From Kribbella pratensis (GTDB lineage Bacteria; Actinomycetota; Actinomycetes; Propionibacteriales; Kribbellaceae): a stretch of 64,000 nt of DNA. The stretch covers positions 2,873,134-2,937,133 of the forward strand of contig NZ_SODU01000001.1 of NCBI RefSeq assembly GCF_004366075.1, in the 5' to 3' direction. Numbering within the stretch: position 1 is the first letter of the stretch; every line of letters starts with the position of its first letter. Of the stretch, positions 34,156 to 49,181 are shown piece after piece. Under the pieces are notes generated by a model. The model saw nothing but the letters and a program-made list of their open reading frames with translations, searched no databases and was not told where the DNA came from. The translations under genes were made by a program, and so were the position numbers.

Positions 34156-35085
34156 TCATGCGGACTTCTTCGTGGCTTTCTTGGCGGCCTTCTTCGCCGT
34201 GGTCTTCTTCGCGGCGGTCTTCTTGGCCGGCTCCGCCTTCTTGGCAGCGGCCGCCTTCTTCGCCGGTGCCTTCTTCGCCGGTGCCTCACCACCGCCTGCG
34301 CGACGCGCCTTGGCGGCCTCGACGGAGGCGCGCAGCGCGGCGACCAGGTCGACGACCTCGGCGCCCTCGGTCTCCTCCTCCTCGGACTCCGGCAGCGGGA
34401 TGCCCGCCGCCTTCGCCTCGACCACCTTCTCCAGTGCCTGGCGGTACTCGTCGTGGTACTGGTCCGGGTCGAACTCACCGCGCAGCGTGTCGATGTACGA
34501 CGACGCCATCGCCTTCTCCTGGGACCGGATCTCCACGTCCTCCGGCGGCGCCGCGAACGACTTGTCCCGGACCTCGTCCGGCCACAGCATCACCTGCAGC
34601 ACCAGGACGTCGTCGACCGTCCGCAGCAGCCCCAGGCTCTCCCGGGACCGCAGCGCGACCTTGACCAGCGCATACAGCTCGGAGCCGTCGAGTGCGTCCC
34701 GGAGCAGCACGTACGGCTTGGCGCCAGGTCCGCCGTCGGCCGCCAGGTAGTACGACTTCCCCAGGTACAGCGGGTCGACCTGGTCGGCCGGCACGAACTC
34801 CAGCACGTCGATGACCTTCTTGCTGGACAGCGGCAGGTCGGCGAAGTCCTCCGAGTCCAGCACCACCATCCGGCCGTCCGGCATCTCGTACCCCTTGCCG
34901 ATGTCGGAGTACGGCACCTCTTCGCCGTCGATCGAGCAGATCCGCTTGTACTTGATCCGGCCCCCGTCGGCGACGTGCACCTGACGGAACGAGATGTCCT
35001 TCTCCTCGGTCGCGGAGAACACCTTGATCGGGATCGTCACCATCCCGAACGAGATGGCCCCCTTCCAGATCGCCTGCATCGCCAT
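34156..35085 (-). CDS. ku: Ku DNA end-binding protein (NHEJ)
   Basis: A 309-residue bacterial Ku. The N-terminus MAMQAIWKGAISFGMVTIPIKVFSATEEKDISF is diagnostic, followed by YKRICSIDGEEVPY and SKSYYLAA-type Ku core blocks. The core ends about residue 255; the tail to 309 is a Lys/Ala/Thr-rich run of KKA and AKK repeats, resembling the extended basic tails of many actinobacterial Ku proteins that help bind DNA. It forms a ring dimer at double-strand ends and recruits LigD, whose gene is not in this window. Confidence 0.97.
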   Translation of the reverse strand: MAMQAIWKGAISFGMVTIPIKVFSATEEKDISFRQVHVADGGRIKYKRICSIDGEEVPYSDIGKGYEMPDGRMVVLDSEDFADLPLSSKKVIDVLEFVPADQVDPLYLGKSYYLAADGGPGAKPYVLLRDALDGSELYALVKVALRSRESLGLLRTVDDVLVLQVMLWPDEVRDKSFAAPPEDVEIRSQEKAMASSYIDTLRGEFDPDQYHDEYRQALEKVVEAKAAGIPLPESEEEETEGAEVVDLVAALRASVEAAKARRAGGGEAPAKKAPAKKAAAAKKAEPAKKTAAKKTTAKKAAKKATKKSA

Positions 35086-45195: not shown

Positions 45196-45744
45196 CTAGC
45201 GGCGGCGTAGGGCGCGGAGGGCCTGGGTGGGGACCAGGCGGACGTTGTAGACCTCGCTGCGGCGCCGGGGCGCGTCCAGGGGGTGCTCCGCGAGTTCCAG
45301 GAAGTCGGCGCCGACGCGGTCGATCGTGCCGGTGACCGGACCTCCACCGCTGCAGAACAGGGTGACCGGTGAACGATCCCGGGCGATCCCGCGCAGCAGA
45401 TGCGCGAGTCCGAGTTTCCCCTCGACGGCTCCGACCGCCGGCTCCGCCCACGGCCCGAGCCGGTGTACGGCGACCAGGGCGTCGACCGGGATCAGCCATT
45501 CCTCGTAGCGCTCGGTCTCGAGCAGCAGGCAGTCCTTCCCGACCCGGCTGAGCAGCCCGCGGACCGGCTCCGCGTCGATCAGTTCAACGCGTACGACGGT
45601 GTTCACCGCCCCGCGCAGACGGTCCAGGACCGTGATCTTGCCGACCTCGGCGCGGATCCGATCGGCCACCTCGCCGTACAGATCACTCTCCTGGAGCGCC
45701 TCGAACTGCGACTCCAGGTCCGCGAACAACGCATCCCACCGCAT
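45196..45744 (-). CDS. Conserved hypothetical cytosolic protein
   Basis: A 182-residue protein starting MRWDALFADLESQFEALQES. An N-terminal helical pair is followed by beta-rich sequence (VNTVVRVELIDAEPVRGLLSRVG, CLLLETERYEEWLIPVDALVAV), reminiscent of two Sm-like or SH3-like barrels (the second around PVTLFCSGGGPVTGTIDRVGADFLELAEH). No catalytic motif. Proteins of this shape sit beside BldC-like and LysM/Rv3235-like genes in related actinobacteria, and here it is convergent with the BldC-like gene. I do not assign a function. Confidence 0.75.
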   Translation of the reverse strand: MRWDALFADLESQFEALQESDLYGEVADRIRAEVGKITVLDRLRGAVNTVVRVELIDAEPVRGLLSRVGKDCLLLETERYEEWLIPVDALVAVHRLGPWAEPAVGAVEGKLGLAHLLRGIARDRSPVTLFCSGGGPVTGTIDRVGADFLELAEHPLDAPRRRSEVYNVRLVPTQALRALRRR

Positions 45745-45831
45745 GACCGTGAACCTACCGGTCCCGGGCGCCACCGCGCCCTGCGACGGTCACCGTCCGC
45801 AGCGGAAACCGACGCAGCGTGCGTTAAGGAC

Positions 45832-45913: not shown

Positions 45914-47179
45914 ATGAATGCGATGATCCGAGCGGTCAAAGGCACACTCGCGCTGGCCGGACTGGCCGGGCTCTACCTGCTGTTGCGGTGGATCACCGCG
46001 GGCTCGATCAGCGGCCTGCGGACGTACGACCTGGATTCGCTGACCGTTCTCGCCGTCGGGACGGTCGCGTGGATCGCATACGGGTGGCTGGTGCTGGCCG
46101 TCGTACTCACAGCGCTCGAGCAGATCCCCGGTGCGGTCGGTGCACTCGCCGGAGCCGTCGCCGGCCGGATCACCACCAAGACCGCCCGCGCACTGCTCCG
46201 CTCCGGTCTCGGCGTCGCCGCCGTCACTCCCCTGACCGTCGGCGCCGCCCACGCAAGTCCTGGCGACACCGCCCACGTCAGCCAGTGGACCCAGCCGTCC
46301 TCGACCACCCTGTCCACCGACTACCGCGCCACCGACTACCGCGCCACCGAGCCCCGCTCCACGGTCCAGCTCGGCGGCACCGACACGTCGTTCCGCGCCA
46401 CCGAGCCCGCGTCCACTGTGGAGATCGGTGGCACGGAGACCGCGCTGCACCGCACGAGTGCCGACAGCACGGCTCCCCGTCAGCGCAGCAACGACTACCG
46501 TGCGACCGAGCCCCGCTCGGCCGTAGAGCTCGGCGGCTCCAAGAGCGCGCCGCAAACGCCGCAGACGCAGAGCGACTACCGCGCCACCGAGCCGCCCTCC
46601 CAGGTCCGCCTGACCAACCTCACGCCAGGCACACCGGCCCGTCCCACCACCCCCACCACGCCCAGCACGCCGACGCCGACCACCAGCACCCCGACGCCGA
46701 CACCGACACCGACGAAGCCCATCACCAGCACCCCGAACCATCCGGCCGGCCACGGCAACCCGACCACCGGCCGCCCCTCCGCCGAGCGGAAGGCCACCGA
46801 CCGGCCCGCCGCTTCCAGCGGCCCCGTGGACACAGGCGCAGGACAGAAGGGTGGGAACGACCTGCCCGCGGGTGGGCGTGCGCGGGTGGGTGTGCCGGAT
46901 CGGCCGACCGCCGGTGCGCCGACCCGGTACACGAACCTGCGGCCATCCGTGCCGGTGCGGGTCGTCGTACGGAAAGGCGACTCGCTCTGGAGCATCGCCG
47001 CCCGCGAACTCGGCCCCCGCGCGACCGCCGATGCGATCGCCGCCCGCTGGCCGGACTGGTACGCCACGAACCGCCAAGTGATCGGGAACGACCCCGACCT
47101 CATCCTCCCCGGGCAGGTACTCCGCATCCCGCCCGCACCCACCGGCGACCACCTCACGCCCCACCCCGAGGAGCAGTGA
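45914..47179 (+). CDS. LysM-domain membrane protein with RATEP repeats
   Basis: A 421-residue protein. Two or three membrane helices at residues 5-110 (LALAGLAGLYLLLRW; LTVLAVGTVAWIAYGWLVLAV; GLGVAAVTPLTVGAA). Next are four copies of a (D/S)(Y/F)RATEPxSxVxLGG motif (about 135-235), then a Pro/Thr-rich spacer with PTPTP runs and a C-terminal LysM domain (VRVVVRKGDSLWSIAARELG ... DPDLILPGQVLRIPP) that binds peptidoglycan. GGGGGTGA precedes the ATG. A single nucleotide separates it from the Rv3235-like gene, so they form an operon, probably acting at the wall. Confidence 0.9.
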   Translation: MNAMIRAVKGTLALAGLAGLYLLLRWITAGSISGLRTYDLDSLTVLAVGTVAWIAYGWLVLAVVLTALEQIPGAVGALAGAVAGRITTKTARALLRSGLGVAAVTPLTVGAAHASPGDTAHVSQWTQPSSTTLSTDYRATDYRATEPRSTVQLGGTDTSFRATEPASTVEIGGTETALHRTSADSTAPRQRSNDYRATEPRSAVELGGSKSAPQTPQTQSDYRATEPPSQVRLTNLTPGTPARPTTPTTPSTPTPTTSTPTPTPTPTKPITSTPNHPAGHGNPTTGRPSAERKATDRPAASSGPVDTGAGQKGGNDLPAGGRARVGVPDRPTAGAPTRYTNLRPSVPVRVVVRKGDSLWSIAARELGPRATADAIAARWPDWYATNRQVIGNDPDLILPGQVLRIPPAPTGDHLTPHPEEQ

Positions 47180-47180
47180 C

Positions 47181-49181
47181 ATGAGCCAGCCCCCCAACCT
47201 CCGGCCGGAAGACCTCCCGCTGGAACACCTCCAGCCCGCTGCTCCTCTCACCGCCGTCCCCACCCGTACGACGGCCCGCACCGGAGCCCGCGCCGCTCAA
47301 GAAGACCCCGCCCCCACCCACCCGGACGCAACGGAGGCTCCCATGGCCGCCCCAACCCCGACCTCACCATCACCCAAGCCGACTCCTCAGCCCGAGCCGA
47401 GCACCACGCCGTCAACTCCCACGGGCACGGCGGTCCCAACTACCGCAGATGCAGCTACTTCGTCAGCGCCCGCCGAAACCCCCGGCACACCCGCAGCTAC
47501 AGCAGCCGAGACCGCACTCGCTAGCACCGCGGTCGCCGGAGCACCGGTTGCCGACTCCACCGCTGGTGGAACTGCGGCTGCTGGGGCTGCGATAGCTGGG
47601 GCTGCGGTAGCTGGCTCCGCGGTAGCTGGAGCTGCGGTAGGTGGAGCTGCGGCTGGTGGATCCACGGTTGGTGAAGCAGCGGTTGCTGGCTCCGCGGTTG
47701 GTGAAGCAGCGGTTGCTGGCTCCGCGGTTGCTGGCTCCGCGGTTGCTGGCTCCGCGGTTGCTGGCTCCGCGGTTGCTGGCTCCGCGGTAGCTGGCTCCGC
47801 GGTAGCTGGTTCCGCGGTGGCTGGAGCTGCCGCTGGTGGAGCTGCGGCTGCTGGCTCCACGGTTGCCGGAGCTGCGGCCGCTGGCTCCACGGTTGCCGGA
47901 GCTGCGGCCGCTGGCTCCACGGTTGCTGGAGCAGCGGTTGGTGGCTCTGCGGTTGGTGGGGTGGATGTCGCGGGGATGTTGGCTGCGGTGGCTCGGCCTC
48001 GGTTGGCGTCGGTTGGCGGTGGGTCGGGTGAGCACACTGTGCCGGCCACCGCGCGGTACGCCGGGGAGCTGACGGACGGGGCGTTGGCGCTGCGGCTGCA
48101 GGCGATCACGCGGCTGGGCGTCGTGTCAGCGCCGCGGCACCTGTCGAGCATCGACGCCGCTGCCACCCCCCAGCCCCACACCGCGCCTCCCGCGGACGGT
48201 GGAGTGACGAAGGAGAGCCGGAAGCTCAGCGTGGTGCCGCCAGTTGTAGGTGCCACACACACGGTCGCGGCGCCTGGGCAACCTGACGGGGCCCGGGCGT
48301 CGCTCAAGGCAGCCAACACCAACCCGACCGACACCACCCCCACCACCACCCCGACCGACACCGCAAGCAGCACCCCGCTGGCCGCAACCCCGTCCAGCAG
48401 CACGCCGGCCAACGTCCGCTCCACCAGTACGCCAGCCACCACCGGTGCCGGCACCACGTTGACTGCAGCCGCGTCCAGCAGCACGCCGGCCAAGGTCCGC
48501 TCCACCACCACGCCAGCCACCACCGGTGCCGGCACCACGTTGGCCGCAGCCGCGTCCAGCAGCACACCGGCCAAGGTCCGCTCCACCACCACGCCAGCCA
48601 CCACCCGTGCCAGCACCCCGCTGGCCGCGGCCCCTTCCAGCAGCACACCGGCCAACGTCCGCTCCACCACCACGCCAGCCACCACCGCCGGCAGCACCAC
48701 GTTGGGTGCAGCCACGTCCAGCAGCACGCCGGCCACCGCGGGTGGCGCGGCGGCTGTTGGGAGGCGGGTGGGTGGGCGTGGCGGGGACGGGCGGGTGCAG
48801 GGTGGGGTTGGTGGGCCGGAGGGGCGGCCGGGGGCGGCTCCGGTGTTGCCGGAGGTTCGGGTCTGGGGGGCTCGGTTGGCGCAGGCGGTTTCGGAGGTGC
48901 TGGCGGGGGATCGACCGATCTCGCAGCTGGTGCGGTTCACCGACGACGTGGTGTTCACGGAGCTGAATCGGCGGGTGCGGATGCTCGGGATGAACTCGAC
49001 CGCGGGTACGCGTGGGTCGAAAGAGAAGAGCACCGTGCGTTCGGTGCGGGTGTTCATGCCCCAGCCGTGCATCGCCGAGGTCGCCGCGCACGTGCGACAC
49101 GGGGAGCGGTCGCGCGCGGTCGCGTTTCGCCTGGAGGTCCGCCGCAACCGCTGGGTCTGCACCGCGCTCGAACTCGGTTAG
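47181..49181 (+). CDS. Rv3235-family protein with huge low-complexity repeats
   Basis: A 666-residue protein. The C-terminal 110 residues (from about VRVWGARLAQAVSEVLAGDRP to the end) match the Rv3235/DUF6459 domain (SVRVFMPQPCIAEVAAHVRHG, VAFRLEVRRNRWVCTALEL), normally the whole of a small protein. Everything before is low complexity: a Pro/Thr-rich start, an AVAGS/AAGAA pentapeptide array (about residues 117-260) and four 27-residue STPA/TTTPATT units (about 411-518). All frames of the repeats stay open, so expansion was in frame. No membrane segment. ATG at 47181 is one nucleotide after the LysM stop. The Rv3235-family function is unknown, though such genes are commonly near secA. Confidence 0.88.
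   Translation: MSQPPNLRPEDLPLEHLQPAAPLTAVPTRTTARTGARAAQEDPAPTHPDATEAPMAAPTPTSPSPKPTPQPEPSTTPSTPTGTAVPTTADAATSSAPAETPGTPAATAAETALASTAVAGAPVADSTAGGTAAAGAAIAGAAVAGSAVAGAAVGGAAAGGSTVGEAAVAGSAVGEAAVAGSAVAGSAVAGSAVAGSAVAGSAVAGSAVAGSAVAGAAAGGAAAAGSTVAGAAAAGSTVAGAAAAGSTVAGAAVGGSAVGGVDVAGMLAAVARPRLASVGGGSGEHTVPATARYAGELTDGALALRLQAITRLGVVSAPRHLSSIDAAATPQPHTAPPADGGVTKESRKLSVVPPVVGATHTVAAPGQPDGARASLKAANTNPTDTTPTTTPTDTASSTPLAATPSSSTPANVRSTSTPATTGAGTTLTAAASSSTPAKVRSTTTPATTGAGTTLAAAASSSTPAKVRSTTTPATTRASTPLAAAPSSSTPANVRSTTTPATTAGSTTLGAATSSSTPATAGGAAAVGRRVGGRGGDGRVQGGVGGPEGRPGAAPVLPEVRVWGARLAQAVSEVLAGDRPISQLVRFTDDVVFTELNRRVRMLGMNSTAGTRGSKEKSTVRSVRVFMPQPCIAEVAAHVRHGERSRAVAFRLEVRRNRWVCTALELG
47529..47964 (+). 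repeat. GC-rich minisatellite encoding AVAGS repeats
   Basis: The core is five perfect tandem copies of the 15-mer GCGGTTGCTGGCTCC (47709-47783) followed by two near-perfect copies. A separate block holds three 30-bp units (47841-47870, 47871-47900, 47901-47930), with degenerate pentapeptide codons on both sides. It is in frame within the Rv3235-like gene. Confidence 0.92.
48411..48734 (+). repeat. 81-bp tandem repeat x4 within the Rv3235-like gene
   Basis: Four 81-bp units (48411-48491, 48492-48572, 48573-48653, 48654-48734) each encode 27 residues of the pattern (N/K)VRST(S/T)TPATT...SSSTPA, preceded by a partial unit. Unit length is a multiple of three, so copy changes keep the frame. Confidence 0.92.

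Follow-up and report, generated by a model that had tools for sequence, protein, structure and literature searches.

We have examined a gene of Kribbella pratensis that lies in a 64-kb window, by which we mean the whole stretch of 64,000 nucleotides analyzed. A 666-aa open reading frame was confirmed on the forward strand at positions 47181-49181, and it encodes a low-complexity N-terminal linker of ~554 residues followed by a 110-residue C-terminal domain (residues 557-666; forward strand, 48849-49178) that was delimited by Pfam, by alignment and by a structural model. The protein is a member of DUF6459 (PF20060), matching positions 1-105 of the 105-position profile with an E value of 2.8e-29 and 102 bits, against a curated cut-off of 27. 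The domain of ~110 residues described in the original prediction is therefore real, and the "Rv3235 family" to which it was assigned is presumably DUF6459 under another name. An NCBIfam search with the protein returned no match. Forty-one columns are invariant in an alignment of 16 Kribbella copies of the domain, and the closest named loci, from K. soli, K. sindirgiensis and Kribbella sp. VKM Ac-2569, have domains 94-95% identical to that of K. pratensis. A second, weak DUF6459 match with an internal stop occurs in one Kribbella genome (G015:C2:512782-513024) and is perhaps a decayed paralog.

The gene immediately upstream (forward strand, 45914-47179) encodes a 421-aa LysM protein, delimited by a LysM match near its C-terminus (E 1.2e-5), by hydropathy and by lengths across the genus. 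It has a hydrophobic N-terminal segment and a variable linker of its own. The ATG of the DUF6459 gene lies one base past the LysM stop codon, and this junction is kept in 36 of the 38 Kribbella orthologs. In a hydropathy scan, the DUF6459 protein had no hydrophobic segment near its N-terminus (maximum 0.08), so surface exposure is not indicated by that scan. A borderline hydrophobic window (1.72 over 19 residues) was found at residue 136, where the first of two repeat arrays begins.

Tandem repeats within the linker

The DUF6459 gene holds in-gene, coding minisatellites. Array 1 (forward strand, 47520-47959; Tandem Repeats Finder and codon listing) consists of 15-bp units encoding ~29 AVAGS-type pentapeptides, which are partly paired as 30-bp units. 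Tandem Repeats Finder (TRF) reports it as 14.7 copies of 30 bp (score 320) or, from 47604, as 23.7 copies of 15 bp (score 299). Array 2 (forward strand, 48368-48735) comprises four full copies and part of another of an 81-bp unit (TRF, 4.5 copies, score 554). When the codons of the linker were shuffled (n = 500), scores did not exceed 87, and shuffles of the array 1 stretch alone reached at most 106; the best repeat score in the window outside the DUF6459 gene was 81. That in-frame minisatellites of 15, 30 and 81 bp inflate the protein, as had been proposed, is borne out by these scores.

The finer claims about the units held to differing degrees. The five perfect 15-bp copies that had been described are present in tandem (forward strand, 47709-47783, 75 bp; exact search and codon listing) as the sole perfect run, and their sequence, GCGGTTGCTGGCTCC, occurs a sixth time at 47679. 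The three 30-bp units are present, at 47841-47930, but are not identical, since successive units differ by one base. Likewise, there are four full 81-bp copies plus a part, but they are imperfect, sharing 69-77 of 81 bases, and none is a perfect match to another. The figure of more than 500 low-complexity residues fits the linker as a whole and not the repeats, which cover 54% of it. A DNA search of the K. pratensis genome with the whole gene recovered the gene itself and one 46-bp stretch at 83% identity, although low-complexity filtering may conceal others. Third-position GC (GC3) is 0.47 in array 1, where codons GTT, GCT and GGA are used, and 0.87 in the domain; GC3 is lower in the linker than in the domain in 33/38 orthologs. 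Elsewhere in the window, 15-bp units at 34160-34286 end a reverse-strand open reading frame (34156-35085) and resemble a Lys/Ala-rich tail.

Repeats are prone to mis-assembly, and an antisense reading frame of 591 codons runs through the arrays without a stop, so the features could in principle be an artefact of assembly or of reading the wrong frame while the real gene lies on the opposite strand. We consider this highly improbable. The arrays are internal to a contig of 3.1 Mb, their copies differ by scattered substitutions, the perfect run is no longer than 75 bp, and the conserved domain sits in the sense frame. An antisense gene was rejected as a candidate: GC at its three codon positions is 0.74/0.70/0.74, without a coding pattern, and a similar open antisense stretch is found in 33/38 orthologs.

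Repeat births and their age across Kribbella

A DUF6459 ortholog was found in all 38 Kribbella genomes searched. Each species is represented by one genome, and the linker variation seen is thus variation between species. Linkers range from 30 to 554 aa, that of K. pratensis being the longest, and their median of 176.5 aa (n = 38) compares with 60.5 aa (range 38-96) in 36 readable genomes of a neighboring family; 42 genomes of that family were inspected and six were dropped for a missing LysM reading or start. The 36 relatives have no array with a TRF score of at least 80. With short, array-free linkers in these relatives, linker inflation appears to be confined to Kribbella as far as sampled. 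The domain itself is near-universal in the class, occurring in 143/147 genomes of the order and 231/246 of the class, mostly as a single copy per genome, and stop-to-stop frames in the order and class are often longer because they continue into the overlapping LysM gene. K. pratensis shares with its DUF6459 relatives a full-profile match to a widespread domain, and differs from them in its 554-residue linker and the arrays added to it.

Strong arrays, defined by a TRF score of at least 90, are present in nine Kribbella genomes (G000, G005, G011, G012, G013, G017, G026, G030 and G031, the start of the last being uncertain). Their units differ from one another, and parsimony requires nine changes for the nine carriers. 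Array DNA matched the linkers of other species in three cases, all of them close relatives (G000 in G025, G012 in G034 and G026 in G018). The arrays thus arose separately in nine lineages. Arrays 1 and 2 are both absent from the four nearest species, whose domains are 94-96% identical to that of K. pratensis, and at the site of the ~29 array 1 units G025 has a few degenerate units, that is, a short seed. Together with the 30-554 aa spread over 38 genomes, this agrees with the predicted expansion, here at roughly the species level. In all 48 TRF rows with a score of at least 50 among the Kribbella orthologs, the period is divisible by three.

The perfect copies had been taken as a sign of recent or ongoing expansion. 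That view suits the five identical units, which together span 75 bp, but not the 81-bp array: synonymous divergence (dS) between its copies is 0.13-0.18, against 0.17 between K. pratensis and G025 over the domain and three neighboring genes. The two values being similar, array 2 seems to date from about the time of the species split, provided that substitution is not accelerated within the array. Copies within array 2 compare at a pN/pS of 0.64-0.77 and those within array 1 at 0.44-0.51. For the domain and neighboring genes, compared between K. pratensis and its four closest relatives, pN/pS is 0.07-0.12; the arrays are thus under only weak constraint as to residue identity. The divergence of G017 from G014 was left out, as the pair appears misaligned (dN 0.40).

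These ages bear on whether the gene is a contingency locus, in which fast within-species changes in copy number would tune or vary the protein in the manner of surface-antigen VNTRs. Five identical tandem copies in the longest linker of the genus would suit such a role. The 81-bp copies, however, are about as diverged as species are, the hydropathy scan gave no sign of export, and with all periods divisible by three there would be no on-off switching by frameshift. We regard a contingency locus as quite improbable.

Prokaryotic in-gene satellites whose unit length is a multiple of three and which encode amino-acid repeats form an established class (PMC6749651), and the K. pratensis units conform to that description. 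The present case differs in that unrelated arrays have grown within one and the same orthologous linker in nine separate lineages. Repeat growth inside disordered linkers is a known kind of change, of which the K. pratensis linker is a striking and well-resolved case: one linker can be traced over 38 species, with nine array births, seeds in close kin, and a motif and domain as fixed landmarks. The literature searched held nothing for "Kribbella" with "tandem repeat".

A proposed tether with fixed landmarks

The landmark within the linker is the conserved motif GALALRLQAITRLG (residues 300-313; forward strand, 48078-48119), identified in the ortholog survey and overlapping a predicted helix at residues 299-311. 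A motif of the form G-A/T-LAL was found in 29 of the 38 Kribbella proteins and a degenerate form in four more; neither was seen in five, which include the four shortest linkers. The spacer from motif to domain is 25-31 aa in 12 of the 29 Kribbella proteins and 72-255 aa in the other 17. In other genera a loose pattern retrieved the motif from 29/42 loci (28/40 genomes, G043 and G175 each occurring twice among the loci), 25-69 aa upstream of the domain. The order in K. pratensis is array 1, motif, array 2 and domain, and repeats interrupt neither the motif nor the domain. G-A/T-LAL is probably a partner-binding helix. A second linker motif, EPPYDD(E), lies upstream of G-A/T-LAL in many class members (L105, L111, L112, L115 and others) and was not seen among the Kribbella proteins inspected for it.

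In a full-length AF2 model, pLDDT is mostly 82-90 in the domain, a helix is marked at the motif (299-311), and the arrays are unstructured. Residues 1-556 are mostly below 50 except near the motif (486/666 residues in all), values that count as weak evidence of disorder because the alignment held 15 sequences. The linker is predicted to be disordered, and its length and sequence vary between Kribbella orthologs. In a model of the domain alone (pLDDT 71), predicted helices lead into a sheet of four strands, an arrangement resembling NTF2-like and VirB8-like folds. In a structural comparison covering the folds ranked higher by Foldseek, VIA scored a TraM fragment (3wz3) best, at Z 8.0, and many NTF2-like chains reached 6-7.6. 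These Z values are within the range of common arrangements, the PDB sequence search gave no notable match, and Foldseek with the domain model returned nothing at E ≤ 0.001 (best E 0.016); the resemblance may thus be chance. The lone match in that PDB search with the domain alignment was a designed enzyme (E 0.68), which was not used.

We favor, with a probability of roughly 70%, the reading that a disordered tether has been lengthened by in-frame duplication that was tolerated, while the folded domain and the motif were kept fixed. On this reading, the gene is the Kribbella ortholog of a protein found in nearly all actinobacteria, in which a disordered N-terminal tether bearing the short conserved G-A/T-LAL motif leads to a small folded domain at the C-terminus; in Kribbella this tether would be free to vary in length. 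Slippage during replication, or unequal exchange, would duplicate short repeats that arise by chance in a tether rich in Ala, Pro, Thr, Gly and Ser. Length changes by multiples of three would survive because they do no more than extend a spacer, and changes striking the motif or domain would be removed. K. pratensis is the longest example, with one array ahead of the motif and another between motif and domain. We infer tolerance rather than adaptation, as sequence seems to be of little importance in the linker. Some points sit uneasily with this account. Frame-keeping is expected of any coding repeat and is no proof of neutrality, and array 1 is fairly hydrophobic, with a 19-residue window reaching 1.72, as a plain disordered linker seldom is.

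The FtsZ C-terminal linker offers a parallel. It is disordered, variable in length and low in similarity, and connects the folded core of the protein with a short peptide that is conserved (PMC9939409). The DUF6459 linker, although not homologous, may work similarly. The FtsZ tails compared in that study are 68-104 residues long, and overlong linkers disturb division, whereas DUF6459 linkers of 30 to 554 residues occur naturally.

The LysM neighbor and gene context

The gene context suggests that the DUF6459 protein works with the LysM protein. In phylogenetic contrasts across Kribbella, the LysM length and the DUF6459 linker length covary on the locus tree (r 0.52-0.59; p 0.0017 and 0.00025; n = 34) and on a tree of RNase E and IF-2 (r 0.46-0.52; p 0.006 and 0.002; n = 34). 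These correlations exclude G007, G031, G035 and G036, for a contig edge, the lack of a junction start or a truncated LysM reading; an earlier, uncorrected correlation used 32 genomes. Such covariation would not follow from simple tolerance, and we regard it as a lead. It could mean that the wall-binding LysM protein and its DUF6459 neighbor belong to a single assembly in which their lengths are matched. Selection would then keep the two disordered tethers in proportion throughout Kribbella, and in-frame repeats would supply raw material and a fast route to new lengths. RNase E length showed no significant link (r 0.07-0.16) and IF-2 length showed none either, in keeping with this idea, but their own lengths scarcely vary (CV 0.05 and 0.02), which makes both weak controls, and LysM length correlated with IF-2 length at r -0.35 (p 0.043). 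Moreover, LysM starts are uncertain, the K. pratensis LysM protein is of middling length at 421 aa, and in the second family (35 genomes, reduced from 36 when G121 was dropped for a contig edge) a raw rho of 0.54 vanished in contrasts (r 0.14 and 0.05, not significant). A shared local mutation rate would yield the same pattern. Array density per kb is 0.65 in the DUF6459 linker and 0.69 in the LysM gene, against 0.08 in the remaining stretches read, and a cause that is local or compositional, shared by both genes, may account for the pattern. On balance, selection for matched lengths seems unlikely, and the tolerated lengthening of a tether is preferred. The LysM gene is itself repeat-prone, with arrays scoring at least 80 in 19/38 Kribbella genomes and lengths of ~172-611 aa.

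If the proteins did form one assembly, DUF6459 would be a core, unstudied component of the actinobacterial envelope, tied to secA by neighborhood. The literature searched held nothing under "DUF6459" and mentioned "Rv3235" in passing only; the protein is thus hardly studied there although near-universal in actinobacteria, and the G-A/T-LAL motif and the LysM neighbor are concrete handles on its function. In the K. pratensis genome secA lies ~19.5 kb downstream of the DUF6459 gene (49182 to beyond 64000, past the end of the window), the order being kept. In other genera, by contrast, it adjoins the DUF6459 gene in 13/13 loci, 12 of them convergent and one, L132, with both genes on the same strand, its identity there resting on Pfam for one cluster member. 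In the 32 of 38 Kribbella genomes that have both genes on one contig, 8.7-26.4 kb separate DUF6459 from the SecA DEAD domain, and the genes are convergent in every case. Genes for LysM, HTH, SAF, CpaE-like and 192-aa proteins are found at 5 to 8 of the 13 loci from other genera. The 192-aa gene, at 45199-45774 in K. pratensis, has no Pfam or NCBIfam match and stands beside DUF6459 in 8 of those 13 loci.
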